From the NCBI RefSeq assembly GCF_900172265.1, contig NZ_FWFK01000001.1:186001-250000 (forward strand): a stretch of DNA of 64,000 nt, given 5' to 3'. This document shows positions 9,858 to 23,538 of the stretch, one piece after another. The translations under genes were made by a program, and so were the position numbers. Each line of letters opens with the position of its first letter. Position 1 is the first letter of the stretch. The notes under the pieces were generated by a model that saw nothing but the letters and a program-made list of their open reading frames with translations, was not told the origin of the DNA and searched no databases. Origin of the DNA: Roseivivax jejudonensis (lineage in GTDB: Bacteria; Pseudomonadota; Alphaproteobacteria; Rhodobacterales; Rhodobacteraceae).

Positions 9858-10910
9858 TCAGAGGCCTTCGTCCCAGGCCCGCAGCGGCTCCGCACCGCGT
9901 TCGCGCAGCGCGTCGAAATAGGCCTTGAGCACGACCTCGCCGGCTTCGCCGGTCTGTTCCAGCCACGGCTCGACGATGTTCGGAAGGCCGTTCACCCAAG
10001 CCTCCTTTTCCTCCTCGGGCAGCTCGTGGATGGTCAGCCCGGCCTCCTGCATCTCGTCGATGGCGCGCGCGGCAAGGTCCGCCACGTAGTCGCCGTGCGC
10101 GATCGAGGTCGCCTGCGCGGCCTCGCGCATCGCGTTCTGGACAGGCGCCGGCAGCCCTTCGAAGAAGCTCTGGTTGGCGGCAATCCCGCCGAAATACATG
10201 GAGCCGATGCCGACGCGGGTGAGTTCCGGCGCGACCTCGTAGACACGGGTCGGCAGGATGCCCGACGCGAAGGACAGCGTGCCCTCGGTCACGCCGGTCT
10301 GGATGTTGGTGTAATAGGTGGTCAGTGCCCCGTCGACCGGCGTCGCACCGGTCTCGCGCAGCCAGTTGGCCGAGGTGCCCGGCGCATTCAGCTTGCGGTT
10401 CTGGAGGTCTTCCATCGAAGAGACCGGAAAGGTCGCGTAGATGTCGTAGCTGTCCGTGATCAGCGACGACAGGTGCACCATGCCGTTTTCGGCCCAGCTG
10501 TTCTTCAGCTCCGGCAGGTTCTCGGACAGGTCGTCGAAGATCTCGATGATCATGCGGTGATCTTCGGTGGCGAACGGCGTGAAGTAGGTCACGTTCTGAA
10601 GCGGCATGTTCGCCCCTTCCCAGACCGTGCCGACCATGCCGACATCGACAATGCCGTCCATCACCGCCTCGCGGGTGTCGGTGAACTTGTAGAGCGTGCC
10701 GGCATAGCTCTCGACCCAGTTCACCTGGTACTCGTTGCCGCCTTCCTCGAGGATACGGTTCACCTCGGGCTGGAAGGTGTTCTTCATCGCGTAGACCCAG
10801 ATATTCTGTTCGGGGTGCGACGAGCCGATGTTTACGGTGATCTGCTGCTGCGCGACCGCAGCGCCGCCGCAAAGGACGGCCGCGGCCGCCGTGAAGGCTG
10901 TGAGTTTCAT
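9858..10910 (-). CDS. dctP: TRAP transporter substrate-binding protein (DctP type)
   Basis: A 350-residue periplasmic binding protein with a signal peptide (about 1-20, ending AAVAQ). The mature protein has DctP-family features: NIGSSHPEQNIWVYAMK, GIVDVGMVGTVWEG, the Arg-containing LQNRKLNAPGTSANWLRETGATPV, and FGGIAANQSFFEGLP. It delivers the ligand to the DctQM permease. The start ATG 10910 has a strong GGGAGG upstream. The ligand is unknown; its place behind a molybdenum hydroxylase suggests the compound that enzyme oxidises (inference). Confidence 0.92.
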   Translation of the reverse strand: MKLTAFTAAAAVLCGGAAVAQQQITVNIGSSHPEQNIWVYAMKNTFQPEVNRILEEGGNEYQVNWVESYAGTLYKFTDTREAVMDGIVDVGMVGTVWEGANMPLQNVTYFTPFATEDHRMIIEIFDDLSENLPELKNSWAENGMVHLSSLITDSYDIYATFPVSSMEDLQNRKLNAPGTSANWLRETGATPVDGALTTYYTNIQTGVTEGTLSFASGILPTRVYEVAPELTRVGIGSMYFGGIAANQSFFEGLPAPVQNAMREAAQATSIAHGDYVADLAARAIDEMQEAGLTIHELPEEEKEAWVNGLPNIVEPWLEQTGEAGEVVLKAYFDALRERGAEPLRAWDEGL

Positions 10911-10969
10911 TGCTTTCCTCCCTTTTGGTTCCTGTGATCGAGCGCCGCTCCCCTTGGCGCCCTTGCGGT

Positions 10970-13351
10970 TCAGTCGTCCAGTTTTCCGAGCGCGCGAAGG
11001 ATCCGCTCCGGGGTGAACGGCATCTCGGTCACTTGCGCCCCGAGGGGTCGCAGCGCGTCGTTGATCGCGTTCATCACGGCGGCGGGGGCACCTGCGGTGC
11101 CGGCTTCGCCCGCGCCCTTCGCGCCCAGTTCGCTTTCGCCCGTCGGCGTTTCCACGTGTCCGATCTGCATGTCGGGCATCTCTGCGGCCATCGGCACGAG
11201 GTAGTCGGCCATCGAGCCGTTCAGAAGCTGCCCGTCCTCGTCGTAGTGGATCTCTTCGTAGAGAGCGCCGCCGAGCCCCTGAACGATGCCGCCGCGGATC
11301 TGTTCGTCGACCAGCTGCGGGTTGATGACCCGACCGCAATCCTCGACGCACCAGTGCTTGAGCAGCGTCACCACGCCGGTGTCCACGTCGACCTCGAGGT
11401 AACTGGCCTGCACACCGTTGGTGAAGGCGAACGGATACTCCATCGTGATGAAGTGCCGGGTCTGCACCAGCTCGCGCGGCAGGTCCTTGGGCAGGGTATC
11501 GCCGCGGAAATACACGATGCGACCCAATTCCTCGAGCGGCATGCGATCCTCGCCGGTGTCGGCATCGACGACCTGACCGGCGCGGATGTCGAGCTTGCCC
11601 TTGTCGGCCTGCAGCATCGCCGCCGCGACCTCGAGGATCGAGTCCCGCAAGGCGCGCGCCGCCTGCAGCGCCGCCTCGCCGCCGATCCCGGCACCGCGCG
11701 ACGCCCAGGTGCCGCCTCCGTAGGGCGTGACCTGCGTATCGCCGGTGATGATGCGCACCTGGCCGGGATCGACGCCGACCCCTTCGGCCACGACCTGGCT
11801 CAGCATCGCCTCGGTGCCCTGTCCCTGTTCGGTCACGCCCGACAGCGCGACGACCGAGCCGTCGGGATCCATGCGCACTGTGCAGCCGTCCTGCGCCGAG
11901 ATGCGCGCCCCGCCGATGCCGTACATGAAGGGCGAGGGATTCGTCAGTTCGATGAAGCTCGCGATGCCGATGCCACGGTATTTGCCCTGCTTTCGCGCCT
12001 CCTCCTGGTCGGCGCGCAGCGCGTCGTAGTCCATCATCTCGACGAGCCTGTCCATCGACGCGTGATGCGACAGCCCCTCGAAGCGCATCTTGGCCGGGGA
12101 CGTCACCGGGTAGGCGTCGTCGGCGTACATGTTGCGCCGCCGGATCTCGACCGGGTCCATGCCGATCGCACCGGCCGCCATGTCGACCAACCCCTCGGTG
12201 ATGGCGACCGCGATGGGATGGCCCACCGCGCGGTATTGGCAGGTCGGCGTCTTGTTCTGGAAAACGACCGTCGTCTGCGCGCGGTAGTTGGCGAAGTCGT
12301 AGGGACCGCCGCACAGGTTCACGACCTGGTTGCCCTCGATGGCCGAGGTGCGCGGATAGACCGAGTACGGCCCGATCCCGGTCCAGTCGTCCACGTCGAT
12401 GGCGAGGATCTTGCCCTCCTCGGAGACCGCGATCTTCGCTTCGATCTCGTGATCGCGGGCGTGTATGTCGGTGGTATAGCTCTCCAGCCGGTCGGCGATG
12501 AACTTGATCGGTCGGCCCATGACCTTGGCGATGGCAGCGGTCGCCACCTCGTCTGGATAAACATGGACCTTGATCCCGTAGGACCCCCCGACATCTCCGC
12601 AGACCACGCGCACCCGGCTTTCGGGAATGTCCAGATGCTCGGCAAAGACCGTCTGCATCATGTGCGGCGCCTGCGTGGCGTGGTAGGCCGTCATCTGCCC
12701 CTCGGCCGGGTTCCAGTCCACGAGGATGGAGCGCGGCTCGAGCGTCACGCCGGTATGCCGGGCGGTGCGAAAGCGGGCGGAGACGACCTTGTGCGCGCTC
12801 TCAAGCGCCGCATCGACGTCGCCCTCTTCGTGCAGGCGGCGGAAGGCGAGGTTGTCGCCCAGATCCGGATGGATGACCGGCGTGTCGGTGTCGAGCGCGG
12901 TCATCGTGTCGGTGACGGCGGGCAGATCCTCGTAATCGACGGCGACCAGCGCCGCGGCCTCCTCGGCCGCCGCCCGAGTGGTCGCGACGACCGCGACGAC
13001 CGGCTCGCCCACCCAGCAGGCGCGATCCACGGCCAGCGGATATTCGGGCGGCGATTTCAGGCCCTTGAGATGGGCGAGCACGGCGACCCAGGGCGTGCAG
13101 ACCTCGGCGAGGTCCTTCCCGGTGAAGATCCGTATCACGCCCTTCACCGCCTTCGCCTCGGACAGATCGATCTCGCCGATCCGGGCATGCGCCACCGGAG
13201 AGCGCGCGAAGCAGACATGCAGCATCCGCGGCAGCACGATGTCGTCGACGTAGCGCCCCCGCCCCTGCACGAGCTTGGTCGCGTTCGGGCGCGGGACGGT
13301 CTTGCCGATATACGAGTTCGGCCGGTCCGGGTTGTTGAACGGGATGGTCAT
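10970..13351 (-). CDS. Molybdenum hydroxylase large (molybdopterin-binding) subunit
   Basis: A 793-residue xanthine dehydrogenase/CO dehydrogenase-family catalytic subunit. It should hydroxylate a substrate at the Mo centre and send electrons through the 2Fe-2S and FAD subunits. The N-terminus has GRGRYVDDIVLPRMLHVCF and the C-terminus carries the catalytic-base motif GAKGAGEAG (Glu749). The active-site loop at 372-379 reads QYRAVGHP. That matches neither the form I CO dehydrogenase loop (AYRCSFR) nor the common AYRGAGR form, so a CO substrate is unlikely. Start ATG 13351 overlaps the small-subunit stop. Substrate unknown; N-heterocycles, aldehydes or purine-like compounds are typical for the family. 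Confidence 0.9.
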   Translation of the reverse strand: MTIPFNNPDRPNSYIGKTVPRPNATKLVQGRGRYVDDIVLPRMLHVCFARSPVAHARIGEIDLSEAKAVKGVIRIFTGKDLAEVCTPWVAVLAHLKGLKSPPEYPLAVDRACWVGEPVVAVVATTRAAAEEAAALVAVDYEDLPAVTDTMTALDTDTPVIHPDLGDNLAFRRLHEEGDVDAALESAHKVVSARFRTARHTGVTLEPRSILVDWNPAEGQMTAYHATQAPHMMQTVFAEHLDIPESRVRVVCGDVGGSYGIKVHVYPDEVATAAIAKVMGRPIKFIADRLESYTTDIHARDHEIEAKIAVSEEGKILAIDVDDWTGIGPYSVYPRTSAIEGNQVVNLCGGPYDFANYRAQTTVVFQNKTPTCQYRAVGHPIAVAITEGLVDMAAGAIGMDPVEIRRRNMYADDAYPVTSPAKMRFEGLSHHASMDRLVEMMDYDALRADQEEARKQGKYRGIGIASFIELTNPSPFMYGIGGARISAQDGCTVRMDPDGSVVALSGVTEQGQGTEAMLSQVVAEGVGVDPGQVRIITGDTQVTPYGGGTWASRGAGIGGEAALQAARALRDSILEVAAAMLQADKGKLDIRAGQVVDADTGEDRMPLEELGRIVYFRGDTLPKDLPRELVQTRHFITMEYPFAFTNGVQASYLEVDVDTGVVTLLKHWCVEDCGRVINPQLVDEQIRGGIVQGLGGALYEEIHYDEDGQLLNGSMADYLVPMAAEMPDMQIGHVETPTGESELGAKGAGEAGTAGAPAAVMNAINDALRPLGAQVTEMPFTPERILRALGKLDD

Positions 13352-13848
13352 GCCGCCCCCTTTCCGGCGCGCGCCTGCGCCACGCCTTCGACCGCGTCGA
13401 TGATCGCCTCGTAGCCCGTGCAGCGGCAGTAATTGCCCGAGAGGTGCTCACGGATCTCCGCGCGGCTGGGAGTGCCGGACTGCGACAGGAGTTCTTCGGC
13501 CGCGACCAGCATCCCGGGCGTGCAGAACCCGCATTGCAGTGCGTTGCGCGCGACGAAGGCATCCTGCAGGTCGGTCATCGCGCCGGTGTCGGTCAGGCCC
13601 TCGACCGTCCACACCTCGGCGCCGTCGGCCTGCGCCGCCAGCATCAGGCATCCGCGCACGGACTGATCGTCGACGCGGATGGTGCAGGCGCCGCAGACCC
13701 CGTGTTCGCAGCTTGCATGCGCGCCCGTCAGGCCGAGCTCGAGCCGGAGGAAGTCGATCATGTGCTGACCGGCAGGCACGCGGGCCTCGACCGGCTCGCC
13801 GTTGACGGTCAGCGACACGTCGACCTTGTCGCGGAAGTGTCCGGTCAT
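13348..13848 (-). CDS. Molybdenum hydroxylase 2Fe-2S small subunit
   Basis: A 166-residue iron-sulfur subunit with two [2Fe-2S] sites. The plant-ferredoxin-like site is CEHGVCGACTI with a downstream Cys in VRGCLML; the helical site is CGFCTPG plus CRCTGY. It carries electrons between the molybdenum centre and FAD. The start ATG 13848 overlaps the FAD-subunit stop, and the stop overlaps the large-subunit start (ATGA in both cases), so the three subunits are translationally coupled in the order FAD, FeS, Mo. Confidence 0.95.
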   Translation of the reverse strand: MTGHFRDKVDVSLTVNGEPVEARVPAGQHMIDFLRLELGLTGAHASCEHGVCGACTIRVDDQSVRGCLMLAAQADGAEVWTVEGLTDTGAMTDLQDAFVARNALQCGFCTPGMLVAAEELLSQSGTPSRAEIREHLSGNYCRCTGYEAIIDAVEGVAQARAGKGAA

Positions 13849-14678
13849 TGATTGTCTCCTTTCAGCCGGGCCACGGCGCGGCGCAGAAGCACACCGGCCA
13901 GGTGGCGGCGGTAGGCGGCGCTGGCCTGCGTGTCGGACGGCGGGTCGATCTCGGCCGCGAGCGCCGCGACCGCACCGTCCAGATCGCCGTCGTCGAGCGC
14001 GGTCATCGCGCCCGTCGCAAGAATCGGCTTCGGCCCGACCGAGAACAGCGCGATGCGGTGGCCGGCGGCACGCTTGACGAGGCACAGACCCGCCAAAGCG
14101 TAGTCGCCAGAGCGGCGCGCGACTTCCTCGAGGACCTGCTTTTCGCCGTCCTCGGCCACGGGCACGGAAATCGCGGTGAGGATCTCGCTCTCATCGAGTG
14201 CGGTGGTGAACACCTCCTCGAAGAAGTCCTCGGCCGGGATCGTGCGCGTGCCGTCCGGCCCCTCCGCGTGCATCTCGGCCCCGAGCGCGAGCGCGCAAGC
14301 CGGGAACTCGGCGGCCGGGTCGGCGTGGGCCAGGGCCCCGCCGATCGTCCCGCGGTTCCGGATCGCCGCGTGCGCGATGTGCGCGACCGCCGCGGCCAGG
14401 ACGGGCGCGTGTGTCTTCACCAAAGGATCGGAGCCGATTTCGACATGGCGCGTCAGTGCGCCGATGTGCAGCGTGCCGCCCTGTTCGGTGACCCCGGACA
14501 GCTCGCTTAGCCGCGAGATGTCGACGAGCAGATCGCCGGCAGACAGCCGCATGTTCATCGCTGCAACGAGGCTCTGGCCACCTGCGAGAAGGCGACCCTG
14601 GCCGCCCGAGGCCGCCAAGAGGTCGAGCGCGTGGCGCACGTTTTCAGCCCGGGCGTAACCGCCCGCCGATGCCTTCAT
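13845..14678 (-). CDS. Molybdenum hydroxylase FAD-binding medium subunit
   Basis: A 277-residue FAD-binding subunit (CoxM type). The FAD motifs are LLAGGQSLVAAMNMRL near residue 36 and IRNRGTIGGALAHADPAAEFP near residue 107. The start at ATG 14678 is chosen because GGAGG lies upstream and the family usually begins with a short MKA-like segment; an upstream ATG (14768) would add 30 atypical residues. First gene of the minus-strand operon running to 7893, divergent from the TetR gene at 14804. Confidence 0.93.
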   Translation of the reverse strand: MKASAGGYARAENVRHALDLLAASGGQGRLLAGGQSLVAAMNMRLSAGDLLVDISRLSELSGVTEQGGTLHIGALTRHVEIGSDPLVKTHAPVLAAAVAHIAHAAIRNRGTIGGALAHADPAAEFPACALALGAEMHAEGPDGTRTIPAEDFFEEVFTTALDESEILTAISVPVAEDGEKQVLEEVARRSGDYALAGLCLVKRAAGHRIALFSVGPKPILATGAMTALDDGDLDGAVAALAAEIDPPSDTQASAAYRRHLAGVLLRRAVARLKGDNQ

Positions 14679-14714
14679 GGCGTCCTCCCTTCCTCCTTTG
14701 ACCCGCGCCTTATT

Positions 14715-14728
14715 AAGCGCTTGATCAA
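14715..14728. promoter_or_regulatory. Overlapping palindromes AAGCGCTT and TTGATCAA in the divergent promoter region
   Basis: AAGCGCTT (14715-14722) and TTGATCAA (14721-14728) share two bases. They lie between the divergent molybdenum hydroxylase operon and the TetR gene, 37 bp before the FAD-subunit start. A near-repeat TTGAGCA follows at 14734-14740. This is a reasonable place for a TetR operator, but the assignment rests on position and symmetry only. Confidence 0.35.
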
Positions 14729-14760
14729 TCCTGTTGAGCAGATGATCTTTTAACTCGAGT

Positions 14761-14779
14761 CGATGCAAGAAGATTCTTT
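14761..14779 (-). promoter_or_regulatory. 19-nt shared promoter-region element, copy A
   Basis: Read on the minus strand this is AAAGAATCTTCTTGCATCG, identical over all 19 bases to 37653-37671 on the plus strand and closely matched at 29910-29928. In each case it points toward the downstream transport/catabolic operon (here the FAD-subunit start, 82 bp away). The TTGCAT inside it could be a -35 hexamer, but no good -10 follows 17 bp later, so its role is open. Confidence 0.5.
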
Positions 14780-15947: not shown

Positions 15948-17555
15948 ATGAACATGGTCTCGGTCGCATCGTTCAGCGCGTTGGCGGATCGGCAGCCGCA
16001 CTATGCACTTGTGGGAGAGGTCGACCTCGTGGTGGTGCGCTGGGACGAGGACGTGTCAGTGTTTTACGGCCAGTGTTTGCATCGCGGTGCACTTATGTCC
16101 GACGGGTTCGTGCGGGGGCGCAACCTCATCTGCGGGGTTCACGACTGGGATTACCGGCTCGACACCGGGGTGTCTGAATACGCCAACGACGAGGCCCTGC
16201 CGAAATTCACCAGTCGGATCGAGGGCGACCATGTACTGGTCGACAGCGCCGAAATCGCCGCCTGGGCGGAGGCCAACCCGCAGCCGTTCGACCGTGAGGC
16301 CTATCTCGGCCTCTACGCCGATACCTCGCACGGTACCGCGGAGGAACCGCATGCCGCCCTCACCCACACATACGCGCGCGACGGGCTGGCATCGACCGGC
16401 CACCACGGCATCATCGATGCGATGGGCGTGCCGCGCGACCGCCTGCCCTCATGGGACGATCTGCAGATCCTGACCGCTCAGCTGCATCGCGCGCCGCTCC
16501 TCGACGATCATCCCGTCGGCACCGACGTCGTCATCGGCCCGACGGCGCAAAAACCGCTCAGGCTCGAGATCCCGCTTCTGGTGTCCGACATGTCCTTCGG
16601 CGCGCTGTCCCAGCCCGCCAAGATCGCGCTCGCCCGCGGGGCGGAGCTTGCCGGGACAGGCATCTGTTCCGGCGAAGGCGGGATGCTCCCCGAAGAGCAG
16701 GCCGCCAACGCGCGCTACTTCTACGAATTGGCGAGCGCTCGCTTCGGCTTTTCGTGGGACAAGCTCGACCTCGTCCAAGCCTTTCACTTCAAGGGGGGCC
16801 AAAGCGCCAAGACGGGCACGGGCGGCCACCTCCCGGGGGCCAAGAACACCGGCCGGATTGCCGAGGTGCGCGGCATCCCGGAAGGACAGCCGGCGATCAG
16901 CCCCGCACGCTTTCCCGACTGGACCGAGCCCGCCCAGATCCGCGACTTTGCCGACGAAGTGCGCGACCGGACCGGCGGGATCCCGGTCGGCTACAAGCTT
17001 TCTGCCCAGCATGTCGAGAAGGACATCGATGCGGCGCTGGAGGTCGGTGTCGACTACATCATACTGGACGGACGCGGTGGCGGCACCGGCGCGGCGCCAA
17101 CGCTCTTTCGCGACAACATATCGGTCCCGACCATCCCGGCCCTCGCCCGCGCGCGGCGCCACCTCGATCGCGCGGCGCCGGACGTCAGCCTGGTGATCAC
17201 CGGCGGGCTCCGGACGCCGGCCGACTTCATCAAGGCCCTCGCGCTCGGCGCGGATGCCGTCGCGGTGTCGAACGCCGCGATGCAGGCGATCGGGTGCATT
17301 GCAATGCGCGCGTGCCACACCAACAACTGCCCTGTCGGGATCGCCACACAGAAACCGCACCTCGTCAGCCGGTTGGTCGTCGAGGCCTCCGCCCGGCGCC
17401 TCGCCAACTTCTTCTCGGCCGCGACCGATCTGATGCAGGTCATGGCACGGGCCTGCGGTCATGATCACGTTTCGAAGTTCAACGCGGATGACCTGACCAC
17501 GTGGAAGCGCGACATGGCCGAGTTGTCGGGCGTCGCCTACGGCGGCGTCCGATGA
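15948..17555 (+). CDS. Rieske domain fused to FMN-binding glutamate-synthase-like domain
   Basis: A 535-residue fusion. Residues about 1-90 form a Rieske [2Fe-2S] domain with ligands Cys43, His45, Cys62 and His65 (CLH and CGVH). Residues about 130-520 match the FMN-binding domain of glutamate synthase: LVSDMSFGALS, GTGICSGEGGMLPEE, KGGQSAKTGTGGHLPG, YIILDGRGGGTGAAPT and the [3Fe-4S] ligands Cys450, Cys456 and Cys461 in CIAMRACHTNNCPVG. The glutamine amidotransferase domain of true GltB is absent, so glutamine-dependent synthesis is unlikely from this chain alone. Rieske to 3Fe-4S to FMN gives a plausible electron path. No signal peptide, so cytoplasmic. Start ATG 15948 (ATG 15954 possible). 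Its stop overlaps the next start. Confidence 0.9.
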   Translation: MNMVSVASFSALADRQPHYALVGEVDLVVVRWDEDVSVFYGQCLHRGALMSDGFVRGRNLICGVHDWDYRLDTGVSEYANDEALPKFTSRIEGDHVLVDSAEIAAWAEANPQPFDREAYLGLYADTSHGTAEEPHAALTHTYARDGLASTGHHGIIDAMGVPRDRLPSWDDLQILTAQLHRAPLLDDHPVGTDVVIGPTAQKPLRLEIPLLVSDMSFGALSQPAKIALARGAELAGTGICSGEGGMLPEEQAANARYFYELASARFGFSWDKLDLVQAFHFKGGQSAKTGTGGHLPGAKNTGRIAEVRGIPEGQPAISPARFPDWTEPAQIRDFADEVRDRTGGIPVGYKLSAQHVEKDIDAALEVGVDYIILDGRGGGTGAAPTLFRDNISVPTIPALARARRHLDRAAPDVSLVITGGLRTPADFIKALALGADAVAVSNAAMQAIGCIAMRACHTNNCPVGIATQKPHLVSRLVVEASARRLANFFSAATDLMQVMARACGHDHVSKFNADDLTTWKRDMAELSGVAYGGVR

Positions 17556-17914
17556 GCACCGCGGCCGCGATACTGGACCTCGCGAGAGCCTGGCTCTGGA
17601 TCGGGGCTGCGGTCGCGGCGCTGTTCCTGTCGATCGGGATTGGCCGGATCGACCCGGACGCCCGGGGCGCGTTCGTCTTTCGCGTGCTCCTGGTACCCGG
17701 CTTGCTTCTGATCTGGCCCTTGGTCCTCTGGAGATGGTGGCGGCTGGAGAAGGGCGACCGGTGGCTGCCGCGCTACCGTCCGCCTTCGGCCCACGCCTCC
17801 GCCGCCGCCGCGATGTCGGCGCTGATCATGGCCGCGCTGGTCCTGTCCTATGGCGCGCGTCAGGACTGGCCCGACAATATCGCTCCGCGGCGGATCACGG
17901 AGGCCGGGTCGTGA
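17552..17914 (+). CDS. Small two-helix membrane protein of the Rieske operon
   Basis: A 120-residue protein with hydrophobic segments at about 11-31 and 41-64 and a third at about 88-105. Between them is a WRWWRLEKGDRWLPRYRPP stretch. I do not recognise a family. The start overlaps the stop of the Rieske-glutamate synthase fusion (ATGA) and its stop overlaps the next GTG start, so it is translationally coupled on both sides. That favours a structural or anchoring role in a membrane redox complex made by this operon (inference). Confidence 0.75.
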   Translation: MSTAAAILDLARAWLWIGAAVAALFLSIGIGRIDPDARGAFVFRVLLVPGLLLIWPLVLWRWWRLEKGDRWLPRYRPPSAHASAAAAMSALIMAALVLSYGARQDWPDNIAPRRITEAGS

Positions 17915-18963
17915 GCGTCCGCTACATCCCGGTCCAGTGGAACCGCTTCAAATGGGGCTACGACGCGGCGCTTCTTGCCAGCGTCGGTGTGTTTCTCTGG
18001 GCGTTTCTGCGTGTGACCCCGGAGGACCTAGGACACGAGCGCGATGTCTCCGGCGCGATCCGCAACGCGCGGGCCTTCGGCGCCTGCGCGTTCGTCATGC
18101 TGACGGGGATCCTGTGCATCGGCCCCCTCGCCCGGCTCGACACCCGCTTCCTCCCGCTTCTCTACAACAGGCGGCATTTCGGGGTCGTGACCGCCGCAGT
18201 GGCGCTGACGCATTTTTCCTTCGTGCTCGACTGGTATTTCGCGTTCTCGCCCGCGGGCAAATACGAAGCCCTCCTGTTCGCCAACACGAGCTTCACGAAC
18301 GGCGTGGCCGGGTTTCCGTTCGAGGCGTTCGGAATCTTCGCGCTCCTGTCGCTGCTGATCCTCGCCGCGACCAGCCACGACTTCTGGATGAAGTTCCTCA
18401 CCCCGCCGGTCTGGAAGGGTCTGCACTACCTGATCTATCCGGCCTACGCCGCCGTTGTCGCGCATGTGGCCTGGGGCGCCCTGCTCGATCAGGAGAACAC
18501 GACGTTCGCCTGGGTGGTCCATGTCGGCGCGCTCTTGGTCGTCGGCCTGCACCTCGGCGCGGCGCTGTCTGGACGGGACGCGGCGAAACCGAGAACCGCC
18601 GGCTGGGTCGATGCGGGCGATCCGGCAACGATCCCGGAAGGCCGTGCGCGCATCGTGACGCTGGCCTCCGGCGATCGGGTCGCGGTCTTTCGGCACGAGG
18701 GCGCGCTCTCGGCCATATCGAACGCCTGCGCCCACCAGAACGGCCCCCTCGGCGAGGGTCGCATCATCGATTGCCTCGTGACCTGCCCATGGCACGGCTT
18801 CCAGTACGATGTGCGCACAGGGCGATCGCCCGCGCCGTTCACCGAAAAGGTGCCGACTTACGCGCTACGGCTCGAGGGCGGCAGACTGCTGGTGAGCCCC
18901 GACGCGGATCCCCCCGGCACGCCGCAACGCCCCGTCCCCGTGCACAGGGGGCGGACGACATGA
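17911..18963 (+). CDS. Ferric-reductase-like transmembrane protein with C-terminal Rieske domain
   Basis: A 350-residue fusion. The N-terminal two thirds has about six helices of the ferric-reductase-like type. His residues sit where b-haem ligands are expected (LYNRRHFGVVTAAVALTHF and LHYLIYPAYAAVVAHVAWG). Residues about 240-335 form a Rieske domain with Cys273, His275, Cys292 and His295 (CAHQNGPLGEG and CPWHGFQYD). It should pass electrons between a cytoplasmic Rieske centre and membrane haems or quinone. The start is GTG 17911, overlapping the preceding stop as GTGA. There is no FAD/NAD reductase domain as in NOX/FRE proteins; the Rieske domain takes its place. Confidence 0.88.
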   Translation: MSVRYIPVQWNRFKWGYDAALLASVGVFLWAFLRVTPEDLGHERDVSGAIRNARAFGACAFVMLTGILCIGPLARLDTRFLPLLYNRRHFGVVTAAVALTHFSFVLDWYFAFSPAGKYEALLFANTSFTNGVAGFPFEAFGIFALLSLLILAATSHDFWMKFLTPPVWKGLHYLIYPAYAAVVAHVAWGALLDQENTTFAWVVHVGALLVVGLHLGAALSGRDAAKPRTAGWVDAGDPATIPEGRARIVTLASGDRVAVFRHEGALSAISNACAHQNGPLGEGRIIDCLVTCPWHGFQYDVRTGRSPAPFTEKVPTYALRLEGGRLLVSPDADPPGTPQRPVPVHRGRTT

Positions 18964-19718
18964 GCGAGCGTCCGTTCTTCGTCGGGTACCTCGGCCTGCC
19001 GCGCGGTCTGCGGTTCATGACGCTTGCGCTGGCGGTGTCGCTGCTGATTGGCGGAGGACTTCTGGCCACCGTCATCGCGCGGGCCAAGGACGATCCCGGT
19101 CCCGGCACCTTCAGGTTCGACTACGGCCGGCAGACCGTCACCGGCATCGTCGCGCTCACGCCGACGCCGATCCTGCACGTCACCAAGGGCTCCGAGCACA
19201 TCGAGGCGGGCCGTACGCTCATGCTGTCCGGCCAGGGCAAGAACGGCGCTCTGCTCCGCGCCCGCGCGCTCGAGGGCCGGCTGGCCAATGCCTCGGGCAT
19301 CCTTCTCACACGGGGAGATCTCGACATGATGCAGCTCGTTTGCGGCGAGGCCGGCCTCGGCCCCGCGGACGGCGACGCGCCCATGGCTCCCGAGCCCGAG
19401 GATCTCGGCCGCTGGGAACTGGCCGGAGAGATCTGCGACGGCAAATGCGCCGCCGGCGCCATGCGGCCCGGGACCGGCATAGCGCACAAGGCCTGCGCCA
19501 GTCTCTGCATCCTCAACGGGCTGCCACCGGTCTTCATATCGACCCGGCCGATCGAGGGGGAGACATTCCTTTTGATCGCCGGCACACCCGAGGACCCGAT
19601 GCCGCCCGAGCTCTACGACTGGGTCGCGGAATACGTCGCGCTCAAGGGCCAGATCGTGCGCCACGGCGACCTGCTCGTTCTCGACATCGACACGGCGACG
19701 CTGGAGCGCACGCCATGA
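18960..19718 (+). CDS. Membrane-anchored Cys-rich protein of the Rieske operon
   Basis: A 252-residue protein with one helix (about 18-42) and a large, probably periplasmic, part. The striking feature is a cluster at 159-183: Cys159, Cys163, His176, Cys179 and Cys183, in GEICDGKCAAGAMRPG and HKACASLCILNG. This could bind a metal or haem or form disulfides. I do not recognise a named family. Start ATG 18960 overlaps the preceding stop, and its stop overlaps the next start. The location suggests a redox partner or assembly factor for the Rieske proteins (inference). Confidence 0.78.
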   Translation: MSERPFFVGYLGLPRGLRFMTLALAVSLLIGGGLLATVIARAKDDPGPGTFRFDYGRQTVTGIVALTPTPILHVTKGSEHIEAGRTLMLSGQGKNGALLRARALEGRLANASGILLTRGDLDMMQLVCGEAGLGPADGDAPMAPEPEDLGRWELAGEICDGKCAAGAMRPGTGIAHKACASLCILNGLPPVFISTRPIEGETFLLIAGTPEDPMPPELYDWVAEYVALKGQIVRHGDLLVLDIDTATLERTP

Positions 19719-19999
19719 TCCGCCACCTGCCCGCAACGACACTGACCCTCCTTGCCGGAGCCTGCATCTTCTACGTCAGCCGCTTCTGGACACTCCGCCT
19801 CTGGTCCGGCGGGCTTTTCGGGATCGAGGCGTTGCCCGCGCAAGGCGGCCTGACCGCCCGGTGGCTGCGCGGCACGCCGCTCGCACCCTACGAGCTGATC
19901 ATCTGGCTCGTCGGCGGCGTCCTCATGCTCACCGTGCTCGAAGCGCTGATATCGCGGCTCTGGCCGCCCGTACCGGAGGACGACAGCCATGAAGGATGA
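19715..19999 (+). CDS. Small two-helix membrane protein of the Rieske operon
   Basis: A 94-residue protein with helices at about 7-24 and 58-82, ending in an acidic tail (PVPEDDSHEG). No family recognised. Start ATG 19715 overlaps the preceding stop by four bases, and its last 11 bases overlap the start of the Rieske-ThDP gene. With the 17552 and 17911 products it would form the membrane part of the proposed complex. Confidence 0.72.
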   Translation: MIRHLPATTLTLLAGACIFYVSRFWTLRLWSGGLFGIEALPAQGGLTARWLRGTPLAPYELIIWLVGGVLMLTVLEALISRLWPPVPEDDSHEG

Positions 20000-21962
20000 A
20001 GCGCTCGACTGGGTCAGCGTCGGCGCTGCCGATCTCCCTGAGGGACGGGTCAAGACGGTGTCGGCGCGCACCCGCTACCTTTGCCTGTCACATTTTGACG
20101 GGCGGTGGGCCGCGATGGACAACCACTGCCCGCACCAGGGCGGACCGCTCGGCGAAGGCACGATCGAGCGCGGCGTCGAGGGCAAGTGCTGGATCCGCTG
20201 CCCCTGGCACGGCTGGGACTTCGACCCGATCACCGGCGCCCCGCCGGGCGGGCACGCGGATGCCGGGCAGACCACCTACCCCGTAAAGGTCGAGGGTGGG
20301 GAAGTCTTTGTCGGCCTCACGCCCGATCCGCCCCGCGCCCGCACCGTGACCGACGCAATAGCCGAGACCATGGTGGCGTGGGGGATCAAGCGCGTCTTCG
20401 GCATGGTGGGGCATTCCAACCTCGGACTTGCGGACGCGATCCGCCGCCGCACCGCGGATGGCGAGATGGCTTATGTCGGAATTCGCCACGAGGGGGCGGC
20501 CGCCTTTGCGGCCTCCGCCTACGGCAAGCTCGCCGGCCGGCCTGCCGCGTGCCTGACCATCGCGGGCCCCGGCGCCACGAACCTTCTGACCGGGCTCTGG
20601 GACGCCAAGGTCGATCGCGCGCCGGTGCTGGCGTTGACGGGTCAGGTTCAGACGCAGGTCTTCGGACCCGGAGCGTTCCAGGACATTGACCTGGGCTCCG
20701 CGTTCGAGGCGGTGAGCCGGTTCTCGCAGCCCGTGCTCTCGACCTCGAACCACCCCAAACTGGCCGCGCTCGCCATCAAGACGGCTCTGATCGAACGGGA
20801 CGTCGCGCACCTAATTTTTCCCGACGACGTGCAAACGCAGCCGTCGGAGGCGCCGGCGCTGCCGCCCGCGGGCCGGGTTGGCGGCGCCGTGGTCAAGCCA
20901 TCGGATGCCGACATCGGCGCCGCACTGCAGCTCATCGGCGGCGCGCGCCGTCCGGTCATCGTCATGGGCCACGGTGCGTGGGAGGCGCGCGACCGGATCA
21001 TCGCGCTGGCCGAAACGCTCGGCGCGCCTGTGCTCACGACGTTCAAGGGCAAGGGCCTCATTCCCGACGATCACCCGAATGCCGGGGGCGTGCTCGGGCG
21101 ATCGGGTACGCCGATCGCAAGCTGGTTCATGAACGAGTGCGACCTCCAGATCGTCCTTGGCGCGTCCTTCTCGAACCACACGGGTATCGACCGGGGCAAG
21201 CCGACGATCCAGGTCGATTTCGAGCGTATGCAGCTTGGCAAGTTCCACCCTGTCACTTTGCCGATCTGGGGCGAGATCGGCGCGTTCTGCGACGCGGTCG
21301 CCCCCCGTGTGACATGCCATCCCGATGCCGACGACCAGATCGCTGACCTCGCCACACGCTGGTCGATGTGGCGCGAGGAAAAGCAGCGGCGCCTGTCGGA
21401 AGAGCGCGGTACCGGTGTGCATTCGGTCGCGGTATTCGAGGCGCTTGCACGGGTCGCGCCGCCCGACGCCCTGATCGCGGTCGATGTCGGCAACAACACG
21501 TATTCCTTCGGCCGCTATTTCGAGACGCGCGGCCAGCGGGTGCTGATGTCCGGGTATCTCGGCTCGATCGGCTTCGCGCTCCCGGCCGCCATGGGTGCGT
21601 GGGCGGCAACCCAGGACATCGAGGACTTCGCCGGGCGCAAGGTCATCTCGATCTCCGGCGACGGTGGTTTCGGACAATACGCGATGGAACTGACGACGGC
21701 CGTGAAGTACCGGATGGATATAACCCACGTCCTTCTGCACAACGCGGAGCTCGGCAAGATTTCCAAGGAGCAGCGCTCCGGCGAATGGCCGGTGTGGGAA
21801 ACCTCCCTCGTCAATCCGTCGTTTGCGGCCTTCGCGCGGCTCTGCGGTGCGCAAGGATCCAAGGTAACCAAAGGCCTGGATGTGGAGGCGGCGCTGGCGG
21901 AGGCCATCGCCGTGCCGGGCCCCGCCCTTGTCGAGATCATGACCGACCCCGAGTTGGTTTGA
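19989..21962 (+). CDS. Rieske domain fused to ThDP-dependent enzyme (pyruvate oxidase/acetolactate synthase type)
   Basis: A 657-residue fusion. Residues 1-110 form a Rieske domain with Cys47, His49, Cys71 and His74 (CPHQGGPLGEG and CPWHGWDFDP). Residues about 115-657 have the three-domain ThDP enzyme layout: PYR domain with catalytic Glu168 in GIRHEGAAAFAASAYGK and TIAGPGATNLLTG, a middle domain (about 305-440), and a PP domain with the cofactor motif beginning GDGGF (Asp558) and ending HNAELG. It should decarboxylate a 2-oxo acid or act on an acyl-ThDP intermediate, with the Rieske cluster as a built-in electron acceptor. The closest well-known relative in domain order is pyruvate oxidase. 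Substrate unknown. Confidence 0.9.
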   Translation: MKDEALDWVSVGAADLPEGRVKTVSARTRYLCLSHFDGRWAAMDNHCPHQGGPLGEGTIERGVEGKCWIRCPWHGWDFDPITGAPPGGHADAGQTTYPVKVEGGEVFVGLTPDPPRARTVTDAIAETMVAWGIKRVFGMVGHSNLGLADAIRRRTADGEMAYVGIRHEGAAAFAASAYGKLAGRPAACLTIAGPGATNLLTGLWDAKVDRAPVLALTGQVQTQVFGPGAFQDIDLGSAFEAVSRFSQPVLSTSNHPKLAALAIKTALIERDVAHLIFPDDVQTQPSEAPALPPAGRVGGAVVKPSDADIGAALQLIGGARRPVIVMGHGAWEARDRIIALAETLGAPVLTTFKGKGLIPDDHPNAGGVLGRSGTPIASWFMNECDLQIVLGASFSNHTGIDRGKPTIQVDFERMQLGKFHPVTLPIWGEIGAFCDAVAPRVTCHPDADDQIADLATRWSMWREEKQRRLSEERGTGVHSVAVFEALARVAPPDALIAVDVGNNTYSFGRYFETRGQRVLMSGYLGSIGFALPAAMGAWAATQDIEDFAGRKVISISGDGGFGQYAMELTTAVKYRMDITHVLLHNAELGKISKEQRSGEWPVWETSLVNPSFAAFARLCGAQGSKVTKGLDVEAALAEAIAVPGPALVEIMTDPELV

Positions 21963-21973
21963 GGACGCGGTGG

Positions 21974-22783
21974 ATGGCAAAGATCGCGCCGACCCCTCCA
22001 ACCCGCCTCGCCACGGCGCGGACACAGGCGCACGCGGCGGTCCAGTTGCTCTATCGCGCCGCGGTCGCGAACCTCGCCGCGCAAGCCGGCGATGCGCATA
22101 CCAACCTTGCTTGGGATCGCGCGGACATGGCCCTGGCGACGCAGCCGCTCGGCCGCCGCGAGGTAACGGTCGGCCTTCGGATGTCTCCCCTGACGCTTCG
22201 GATCGGCGACGCGGAGCTTGCGCTTGACCGCCGGACCGCGTCCGACGCGCTCGCTTGGCTCGACGATCGGCTTGCCGATGTCGGTCTGCGCTCGGCGCGG
22301 TCCACGGCTGTAACGTACGACCTGCCGACGGCGGTGGCCCACCTTCACGGTTTCGAGGACGATCCCGGGCTAATCGCATTGGCGGAATGGTTCGATCTTG
22401 CCGATACGGCACTGCACCGCGTCGCGAAACGGATCGACGCGGTGCCAGGGCCAAGTCCCGTGCGCTGCTGGCCCCATCATTTCGACATTGCCAGCTATGT
22501 CGCACTCGAGGACGGCGATCCCGAAGAGGCGCGCGGTATCGGCATCGGCCTGTCGCCCGGAGATGCGGCGCAGGATCAACCTTATTTCTACGTGACCCCT
22601 TGGCCGCGGCCTCCGGTGCATCTGTTGCCCGAGGCGATCCCGCCGGGACGATGGCACCGCGGATCCTTTGTCGGGTTGGTGGCGTCTGCCTCGGATCTCA
22701 CGGCCATGTCCGAGATCCATTCGGCAAGCGAGGAATTCCTGGAGCGAAGCGTCGCCATTGCGCGCGAACTCCTTGGCGCATGA
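21974..22783 (+). CDS. Conserved-looking hypothetical protein, end of Rieske operon
   Basis: A 269-residue soluble protein starting at ATG 21974 with GAGG about 9 nt upstream, 11 nt after the ThDP gene. Notable segments are VRCWPHHFDIASYV, GIGIGLSPGDAA and QPYFYVTPWPRPP, which look like conserved structural motifs, but I cannot assign a function. It has no signal peptide or membrane helix. The short gap suggests co-transcription with the Rieske genes, although the loss of the overlapping-start pattern could mark a looser link. Confidence 0.72.
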   Translation: MAKIAPTPPTRLATARTQAHAAVQLLYRAAVANLAAQAGDAHTNLAWDRADMALATQPLGRREVTVGLRMSPLTLRIGDAELALDRRTASDALAWLDDRLADVGLRSARSTAVTYDLPTAVAHLHGFEDDPGLIALAEWFDLADTALHRVAKRIDAVPGPSPVRCWPHHFDIASYVALEDGDPEEARGIGIGLSPGDAAQDQPYFYVTPWPRPPVHLLPEAIPPGRWHRGSFVGLVASASDLTAMSEIHSASEEFLERSVAIARELLGA

Positions 22784-23010
22784 GACGCGATGTGCCCCCG
22801 CCGCAGGTGTTGGAGGGAATTCGCACTGAGTCGTCATTCGTCGATATTTAGAGAAATATGGATCGGTCCGAAGCGCAGAGAACGTGTTACATACCTCACG
22901 AGTCGGAGCATCGCAGATCCGTGTAATGCGCGGAAATCCAATCGACCCTACTCTAGTCCCAATCGCCGACGCTTCATTTCGTCGGCGCTGGTATGAACAG
23001 GAGAGTCGCG

Positions 23011-23538
23011 ATGCCCGGATACGACATGACACGCCGCGCCGCAATCGGCGCCGCCCTTGCCTCCGTTGCAACGACCAAATCACGAGCGGATGACACCGCG
23101 GCGCTGACCAATGAGGACTTCATTTTTGAAATCACCCGCTCCGACGCCGAATGGCGGAGATTTCTCGGCGACGAGCGGTATTACGTCATGCGCGAGGTCG
23201 GAACGGAATGGGCACGCTCATCGGAACTCTGGGATCGATACGGTGCCGCGACATATTCGTGCGCTGGCTGTGATCTCAAGGTCTATGACGAGAAACAGCG
23301 CCGGCCCCTCGATAAGGGCTGGGTCTTTTTCCACCATGCGGAGCCGAGATCGGTTCTGATGAGCATCGACAGGGTCAGCCCCACCGCCTACGGCGGTTCG
23401 GGCATGGAGGAAGAGGGAAAGGAACTCATCGAAGTCCAGTGTCGCCGCTGTGGCTGTCACCTCGGGCACATTCTCTACCTCGAGGGCGGGATCGTGCACT
23501 GCATCAACGGGATCGCGTTGACGTTGCAGGAAATCTGA
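23011..23538 (+). CDS. msrB: Exported MsrB-like methionine-R-sulfoxide reductase
   Basis: A 175-residue protein of the SelR/MsrB family, which reduces methionine-R-sulfoxide. The zinc-type cysteines are Cys84/Cys87 (CAGC) and Cys144/Cys147 (CRRC). HLGH and the catalytic Cys164 in VHCINGIAL match the family RYCxN motif, with His in place of Tyr. The N-terminus carries a Tat-like twin-arginine signal (TRRAAIGAALASVA, about residues 7-30), so it probably works in the periplasm. The start at 23011 is chosen because CAGGAGA sits 6 nt upstream; an earlier ATG at 22993 is less likely. The usual resolving Cys is not obvious. Confidence 0.85.
   Translation: MPGYDMTRRAAIGAALASVATTKSRADDTAALTNEDFIFEITRSDAEWRRFLGDERYYVMREVGTEWARSSELWDRYGAATYSCAGCDLKVYDEKQRRPLDKGWVFFHHAEPRSVLMSIDRVSPTAYGGSGMEEEGKELIEVQCRRCGCHLGHILYLEGGIVHCINGIALTLQEI

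Follow-up and report, generated by a model that had tools for sequence, protein, structure and literature searches.

Three Rieske fusion proteins in one conserved but modular operon of Roseivivax jejudonensis, a possible electron-transfer system

What might a bacterium do with three different Rieske iron-sulphur fusion proteins that are encoded side by side? The question is raised by a stretch of 64,000 nucleotides of Roseivivax jejudonensis (the window; coordinates given for the operon are window positions), in which seven open reading frames (ORFs), here called A to G, run head to tail on the plus strand between positions 15948 and 22783 (Table 1). The frames overlap by four bases at A/B, B/C, C/D and D/E and by 11 bases at E/F, and a gap of 11 bases lies between F and G. 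An initial annotation of this DNA had described three Rieske fusions within one operon of overlapping or adjoining genes; its coordinates and motifs are correct on inspection of the ORFs, and the complete ligand sets and the Pfam matches bear the description out. We propose, with a probability of roughly 0.5, that the operon encodes a modular electron-transfer system wired by histidine-ligated [2Fe-2S] domains, which would link F, A, C and D.

Table 1. Genes of the Rieske operon in the window, with the basis of each description.
Gene	Position	Strand	Product	Basis
A	15948..17555	+	535 amino acids; N-terminal Rieske [2Fe-2S] domain and glutamate-synthase-type flavin mononucleotide (FMN)/[3Fe-4S] domain	Pfam
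B	17552..17914	+	120 amino acids; about three hydrophobic stretches	Hydropathy
C	17911..18963 (GTG start)	+	350 amino acids; ferric-reductase/MsrQ-like membrane domain and C-terminal Rieske domain	Pfam
D	18960..19718	+	One N-terminal hydrophobic helix, then a beta-rich part with C159/C163/H176/C179/C183	AlphaFold2 (AF2) model, conservation
E	19715..19999	+	94 amino acids; one clear hydrophobic stretch	Hydropathy
F	19989..21962	+	657 amino acids; N-terminal Rieske domain and PoxB/pyruvate-oxidase-like thiamine diphosphate (ThDP) enzyme	Pfam, NCBIfam, PDB matches
G	21974..22783	+	Nameless family with the invariant motif C165-W-P-H-H-F-D171; present after F in some loci	

The Rieske domains (PF00355) of A, C and F are recognised by Pfam with E-values of 1.6e-10, 4.6e-14 and 2.5e-13 respectively. 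Each contains both the C-x-H and the C-x2-H ligand pair, these are C43-x-H45 and C62-x2-H65 in A, C273-x-H275 and C292-x2-H295 in C, and C47-x-H49 and C71-x2-H74 in F. The ligands are invariant in 66 rows for A, 64 for C and 88 for F, in alignments whose rows span no less than 85-90% of the window protein, include the window protein itself and are in part redundant; by construction the coverage rule shuts out relatives of A without the Rieske part. Judged from these alignments, the conservation of the ligands is more than chance. A tree built from 74 Rieske domains places the rows of A and of C each in one well-supported clade and clusters those of F, with one uncertain long branch; the natural reading would be that the three fusions are old and separate.

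The initial annotation had made its proposal depend on conservation beyond this genome, and such conservation is found, with significant co-occurrence among the genomes of the family. A scan of the collection with F gave 409 relatives, the best 80 of which were kept (loci L009-L088) and their neighbours scored by tblastn. Neighbours were counted in the 48 of these loci that are well flanked, where the sequence extends 7 kb or more ahead of F and 4.5 kb or more past it; the remaining 32 were set aside. A relative of A lies near F in 39 of the 48 (38 with the Rieske part and one short), and relatives of C, D, B, E and G are present in 30, 30, 29, nine and seven respectively; B travels with C and D, and over all 80 loci G is present in 15. 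The 48 loci show 14 gene orders, most often A F B C D (15 loci), followed by the order of the window, A B C D E F, by A F and by A F G, with six loci each.

In a family sample of 198 genomes that includes the window genome, searched at E<=1e-100 for F, <=1e-40 for C and <=1e-90 for A, F is present in 13 genomes, C in 20 and A in 36, with the match to A reaching the Rieske part in 22 (in one of these, G184, in two pieces). F is accompanied by C in 12 of its 13 genomes and by a Rieske-bearing A in 12, all three being present in 11. Fisher tests, uncorrected for kinship, give p values of 2.9e-13 for F with C, 1.5e-12 for F with Rieske-bearing A and 3.6e-10 for C with Rieske-bearing A. F is found in five of 398 genomes in a phylum sample, its own genome included. 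The gene in G184 (L158:4308-6338) lies in two separate open pieces and is possibly broken or interrupted.

The gene set is conserved but modular, and B-C-D(-E) is a movable module within it. Rieske-bearing A occurs without the other genes in L148 and L150-L153, C and Rieske-bearing A occur without F in two of the family genomes, and in L139 a Na+/H+ exchanger, A, C, D and E are present and F is absent. Relatives of C and D are found on five Rhizobium plasmids, and a plasmid search detected no Rieske-bearing F on those with B-C-D; in the three Rhizobium plasmid loci that were opened, these genes are preceded by a short-chain dehydrogenase/reductase gene, and a few kb upstream the opposite strand carries a separate ThDP enzyme gene. 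Rhizobium B-C-D genes in L162, L163 and L171 lie near a separate ThDP enzyme gene, a coenzyme A (CoA) transferase gene and an OpgC gene. Plasmids also carry Rieske-bearing F, at 55-60% identity; four of them are haloarchaeal and one is mycobacterial. A is present on three of these five records, all of them haloarchaeal.

F contains the three Pfam TPP_enzyme domains (N, M and C). Its best NCBIfam models are pyruvate oxidases and dehydrogenases and its best PDB match is Escherichia coli PoxB (3eya/3ey9), with scores under the equivalog cut-offs (362 bits against 742 for PRK08611 and 300 against 792 for PRK09124). In addition to the Rieske ligands, E168, F230-Q231, K590 and E594 are conserved in the 88 rows.

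The FMN half of A belongs to the Pfam family Glu_synthase (PF01645, E 2.9e-87), and its PDB matches are to the FMN region of glutamate synthase (GltS). The presumed [3Fe-4S] cysteines C450, C456 and C461 are invariant in the 66 rows, here at coverage of at least 90%. In family genomes there are also short relatives of A, mostly 67-71% identical, which match only from about residue 127 (about 127-534). Ten GltS-like proteins were scanned for what stands in place of the Rieske domain. Seven, every one a short relative of A (L018, L019, L066, L155, L156, L157 and L170, the last on a Vibrio fortis plasmid), have tandem CDGSH [2Fe-2S] domains there, and in L018, L019 and L066 the gene adjoins F. 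Of the remaining three, a haloarchaeal A bears a Rieske domain, and neither module is present in a Priestia protein or in the GltS-like neighbour of F in L059. Tandem CDGSH domains joined to a glutamate synthase FMN domain have been published as type 5 CISD (PMC3174974) and are noted also in PMC5859297; the portions of these two papers available to us state neither a function nor a Rieske counterpart for the fusion. Rieske and CDGSH domains are both histidine-ligated [2Fe-2S] modules, so that one kind of enzyme core is combined with either of them and the cluster module can be exchanged in A-type proteins. This exchange, which in three cases is seen next to F, is new here and is the most informative result of the analysis.

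C matches the Pfam family Ferric_reduct (PF01794, E 9.1e-10) and scores 39 bits against the NCBIfam MsrQ model, whose cut-off of 130 it does not reach. Two histidine pairs, H89-x11-H101 and H172-x12-H185, are present in 64 of 64 rows, as is H156, and H214 is present in 97%. A plain hydropathy scan gave five of the six expected helices, the limits of helix 3 being set by eye; with these limits the loop charges suggest that both ends of C, and with them the Rieske domain, are inside. B and E look like small membrane proteins from their hydropathy. Another small hydrophobic ORF, not necessarily kin to E, stands in E's place after D in 14 loci.

At E 0.01 neither Pfam nor NCBIfam assigns B, D, E or G to a family; even at E 1, D has no match in either library, and B and G have none in NCBIfam. 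The AF2 model of D (mean predicted local distance difference test, pLDDT, 85.5) has a helix at residues 15-42 followed by two beta-rich parts, with the putative cluster loop around 164-166 modelled at low confidence. Its motif is C159-x3-C163...H176-x2-C179-x3-C183, in which C163, H176, C179 and C183 are invariant in 65 rows and C159 is present in 95%; C159 is missing in L085 and L086, so the core of the site would be the other four residues. Short relatives of the C-terminal part of D (about 140-195 amino acids) have N-termini that on inspection resemble signal peptides, and the Cys/His site is therefore placed provisionally on the outside. These nameless, exported-looking relatives are found at L193:3771-4196, L195:3931-4374, L197:4242-4730 and L198:4368-4835. 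A second small Cys-containing protein adjoins the D-like relative in L193, L197 and L198, and the relative in L197 sits with SCO1/SenC and rhodanese genes (Pfam), that in L193 with an SCO1-like gene (by eye). The AF2 model of G has a pLDDT of 90.8 and no PDB match at E<=0.001.

We therefore consider how these proteins might work together, supposing that their cofactors are in place and that one Rieske cluster can pass electrons to another. F would decarboxylate a 2-oxo acid or take an aldehyde-level substrate, and its electrons would reach its own Rieske cluster, probably via a flavin, where PoxB itself goes to the membrane. A would give or take electrons through its own Rieske cluster. The Rieske domain of C would dock to F and probably to A in the cytosol, and C would pass electrons by way of two b haems to the outer side of the membrane, where the partner may be the Cys/His domain of D or the quinone pool. 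This scheme is supported by the invariant Rieske ligands, by the co-occurrence of F with C and Rieske-bearing A, by the plasmids that F and A share and by the missing tail of F; by the two histidine pairs of C, its inside Rieske domain as predicted from loop charges and its want of a recognised flavin or NADPH domain; and by the signal-like relatives of D and the CDGSH domains that replace Rieske in A relatives next to F. That the thiamine enzyme, the flavin enzyme and the membrane haem protein all bear the same kind of Rieske "plug" suggests mutual electron exchange.

Several observations weigh against this linked system. None of A-E or G lies within about 7 kb of F in five of the 48 well-flanked loci, and the L059 protein shows that a GltS-like neighbour of F can be without either cluster module. 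B-C-D-E is found without A and F in L144 and L147. Among the family genomes, eight of the 22 with Rieske-bearing A have neither F nor C, and six of the 20 with C have neither F nor Rieske-bearing A; the Fisher tests, moreover, ignore kinship. Where the F locus showed no C (37 genomes), C matches elsewhere in 13, one match being a fragment, and is unmatched at E<=1e-40 in 24, many of these C-negative genomes being metagenome-assembled genomes of unknown completeness. This last result, and the fact that B-C-D(-E) and A each also occur alone, do not support the fixed multi-enzyme complex of the initial annotation as it was stated.

The same facts lend most weight to the alternative that there is no complex at all, and that A, F and B-C-D-E are independent redox modules, co-regulated and horizontally transferred, in which each Rieske domain has a soluble carrier of its own. 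All three modules are also found apart, the gene order is shuffled among its 14 arrangements, and the Rhizobium plasmids carry B-C-D with no Rieske-bearing F found there. We regard this as a serious competitor which nonetheless is probably not correct, as C and Rieske-bearing A are each present in 12 of the 13 genomes with F, the genes overlap, and no ferredoxin reductase is recognised by Pfam among the seven genes, of which B, D, E and G are without a family.

A further alternative is a catabolic pair, in which A would oxidise an amino or hydroxy acid to the imino or 2-oxo acid and F would decarboxylate the product, both feeding C, so that the operon respires such an acid. Most well-flanked loci have A and F close together, and on two haloarchaeal plasmids the distance between them is at most about 4 kb; the [3Fe-4S] cysteines and a large part of the GltS FMN region are retained in A. 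On a Priestia megaterium plasmid (L177:4619-7964) a pyruvate oxidase gene is directly followed by an FMN-GltS-like gene, neither with a Rieske domain, which would fit a pair of this kind, but the pairing is seen in only one of five opened bacillar plasmid loci with a YerD-like gene. In 8-10 loci the opposite strand carries, as judged by eye, branched-chain-type ATP-binding cassette transporter genes 4-10 kb downstream of F, and these may be no more than shared synteny of close relatives; no matching transporter or aminotransferase recurs in the wider set, in which the recurring transporter is a Na+/H+ exchanger. A catabolic pair thus seems unlikely.

Electrons might instead flow inwards, C taking them from quinol or the periplasm and feeding A and, in a non-oxidative mode, F, so that under stress a reduction or a repair could be driven. 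In favour of this direction, GltS domains usually run as reductive enzymes; against it, PoxB-type enzymes are electron donors, and for GltS chemistry the reducing power of a Rieske cluster is weak. Bacillus subtilis yerD (GltS-like) and ydaP (pyruvate-oxidase-like) are presumably analogues of A and F, an assumption that we make from family names and general knowledge. Both genes are in a SigB-regulon list (PMC7824861), and a table in PMC5717166 labels yerD with paraquat stress and ydaP with ethanol stress, but YerD is filed under osmotic resistance in PMC7522486, at least in the portions of these sources available to us, and the stress label is unsettled. We consider inward flow improbable. 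Together with the neighbouring genes, these analogues give weak hints that the operon may have a role in stress.

Gating of A and F by the Rieske and CDGSH domains, acting as redox switches or sensors and not as conduits, would agree with the exchange of one for the other in A relatives and with redox or sulfur-handling neighbours at haloarchaeal loci and one Rhizobium locus, but it leaves unexplained both the same kind of domain on the membrane haem protein C and the co-occurrence of C with F, and it is the reading that we find hardest to credit.

The neighbours of the operon genes vary between loci. A relative of a Na+/H+ exchanger is found near F in 35 of the 80 loci, often just before A (L014:4598-5896 belongs to PF00999). 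A sodium:proton antiporter gene comes after one haloarchaeal F, and a cation:proton antiporter is encoded near the mycobacterial F. Redox and sulfur genes surround the haloarchaeal copies and none were found around the 80 F loci; chlorite-dismutase-family and extracytoplasmic function (ECF)/NrsF genes follow one Rhizobium copy. An ECF sigma factor and zinc-finger anti-sigma pair (by eye) is divergent from exchanger-A-F at L030:4293-5218, with related ORFs in five to six loci, and at L202:937-1838. A SnoaL-like protein is encoded near A or F in four of the 80 loci (L012:7534-8316, L019, L020 and L066; Pfam on L012 and L020), and relatives of a DUF1622 membrane protein lie close to F in two (L086:10514-10861 and L087:12154). 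In the window, an MsrB gene (SelR in Pfam; 22993-23538) with a signal-like N-terminus comes soon after the operon, and no relative of it lies near F in the 48 well-flanked loci. Genes for a CoxMSL-type molybdenum hydroxylase and a binding protein of the tripartite ATP-independent periplasmic (TRAP) transporter type were recognised by eye on the minus strand at about 9858-14768.

The initial annotation had taken the gene set for a possibly undescribed system. No publication on it is among the matches listed by our literature search, which is weak evidence, as most subscription journals lie outside the search; to that extent the statement stands. A paper on bifurcation is the sole listed match in which Rieske, pyruvate oxidase and glutamate synthase appear together, and in the available part of its text they are treated apart (PMC6037941). 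The available part of PMC8097209 has no such fusion, and the sole Rieske match in PMC5676040 is an author name. If the linked system is true, it would give a function at once to the Rieske-ThDP fusions of bacteria and haloarchaea, to the Rieske or CDGSH GltS-like FMN proteins, to the Rieske ferric-reductase-like proteins and to the D family. It would also make it testable whether histidine-ligated [2Fe-2S] domains are exchangeable connectors from soluble enzymes to the membrane.

Each part of the proposed system can be compared with a known one. F shares with the PoxB and PRK08611-type pyruvate oxidases the three ThDP-enzyme domains, the catalytic glutamate E168, F230-Q231 and E594-Q595, and differs from them in its additional N-terminal Rieske domain. 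In comparison with five plasmid-borne POX/PoxB proteins, F has H142 where these have Asp, N198 where they have His and K590, at a position which we take to be that of Phe479 of Lactobacillus POX, where they have Phe or Met. These positions are conserved in each group, so pyruvate is not assured as the substrate of F. F ends at residue 657, whereas the five proteins run tens of residues further. The C-terminal tail of PoxB is membrane-binding, and we infer that the Rieske domain may be a substitute electron exit for the tail that F is missing.

Like the large subunit of glutamate synthase, A has an FMN domain and [3Fe-4S] cysteines. It has no N-terminal glutaminase domain, however, and at 535 amino acids carries its Rieske domain at that end; its matches span only about residues 854-1187 of the approximately 1500 of the large subunit, the rest of which is absent from A, and several pocket-side residues differ. 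A full glutamate synthase is ruled out by the absence of the glutaminase domain. With type 5 CISD, A shares the same kind of FMN domain, but in the window protein Pfam detects a Rieske domain and no CDGSH.

C resembles the NOX and ferric reductase proteins in its membrane domain and in two histidine pairs with about 12 residues between the histidines of each, but Pfam recognises no cytosolic flavin adenine dinucleotide (FAD)/NADPH domain, and a Rieske domain stands there instead. It shares the histidine pairs and the membrane domain also with MsrQ, to which the match is weak; in contrast to the MsrPQ system, no MsrP-like protein or molybdopterin domain is recognised by Pfam among the seven genes.

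The kinds of system that are joined here are thus already known, these are membrane-linked ThDP oxidases, conduits of the ferric-reductase type and CISD/GltS enzymes. We suggest, tentatively and with the odds against it, that their combination represents a new class, in which soluble ThDP and FMN/[3Fe-4S] enzymes would share one membrane haem protein through exchangeable plugs, Rieske here and CDGSH in relatives, and would deliver the reducing power of 2-oxo acids to D as a periplasmic Cys/His acceptor of a new type.

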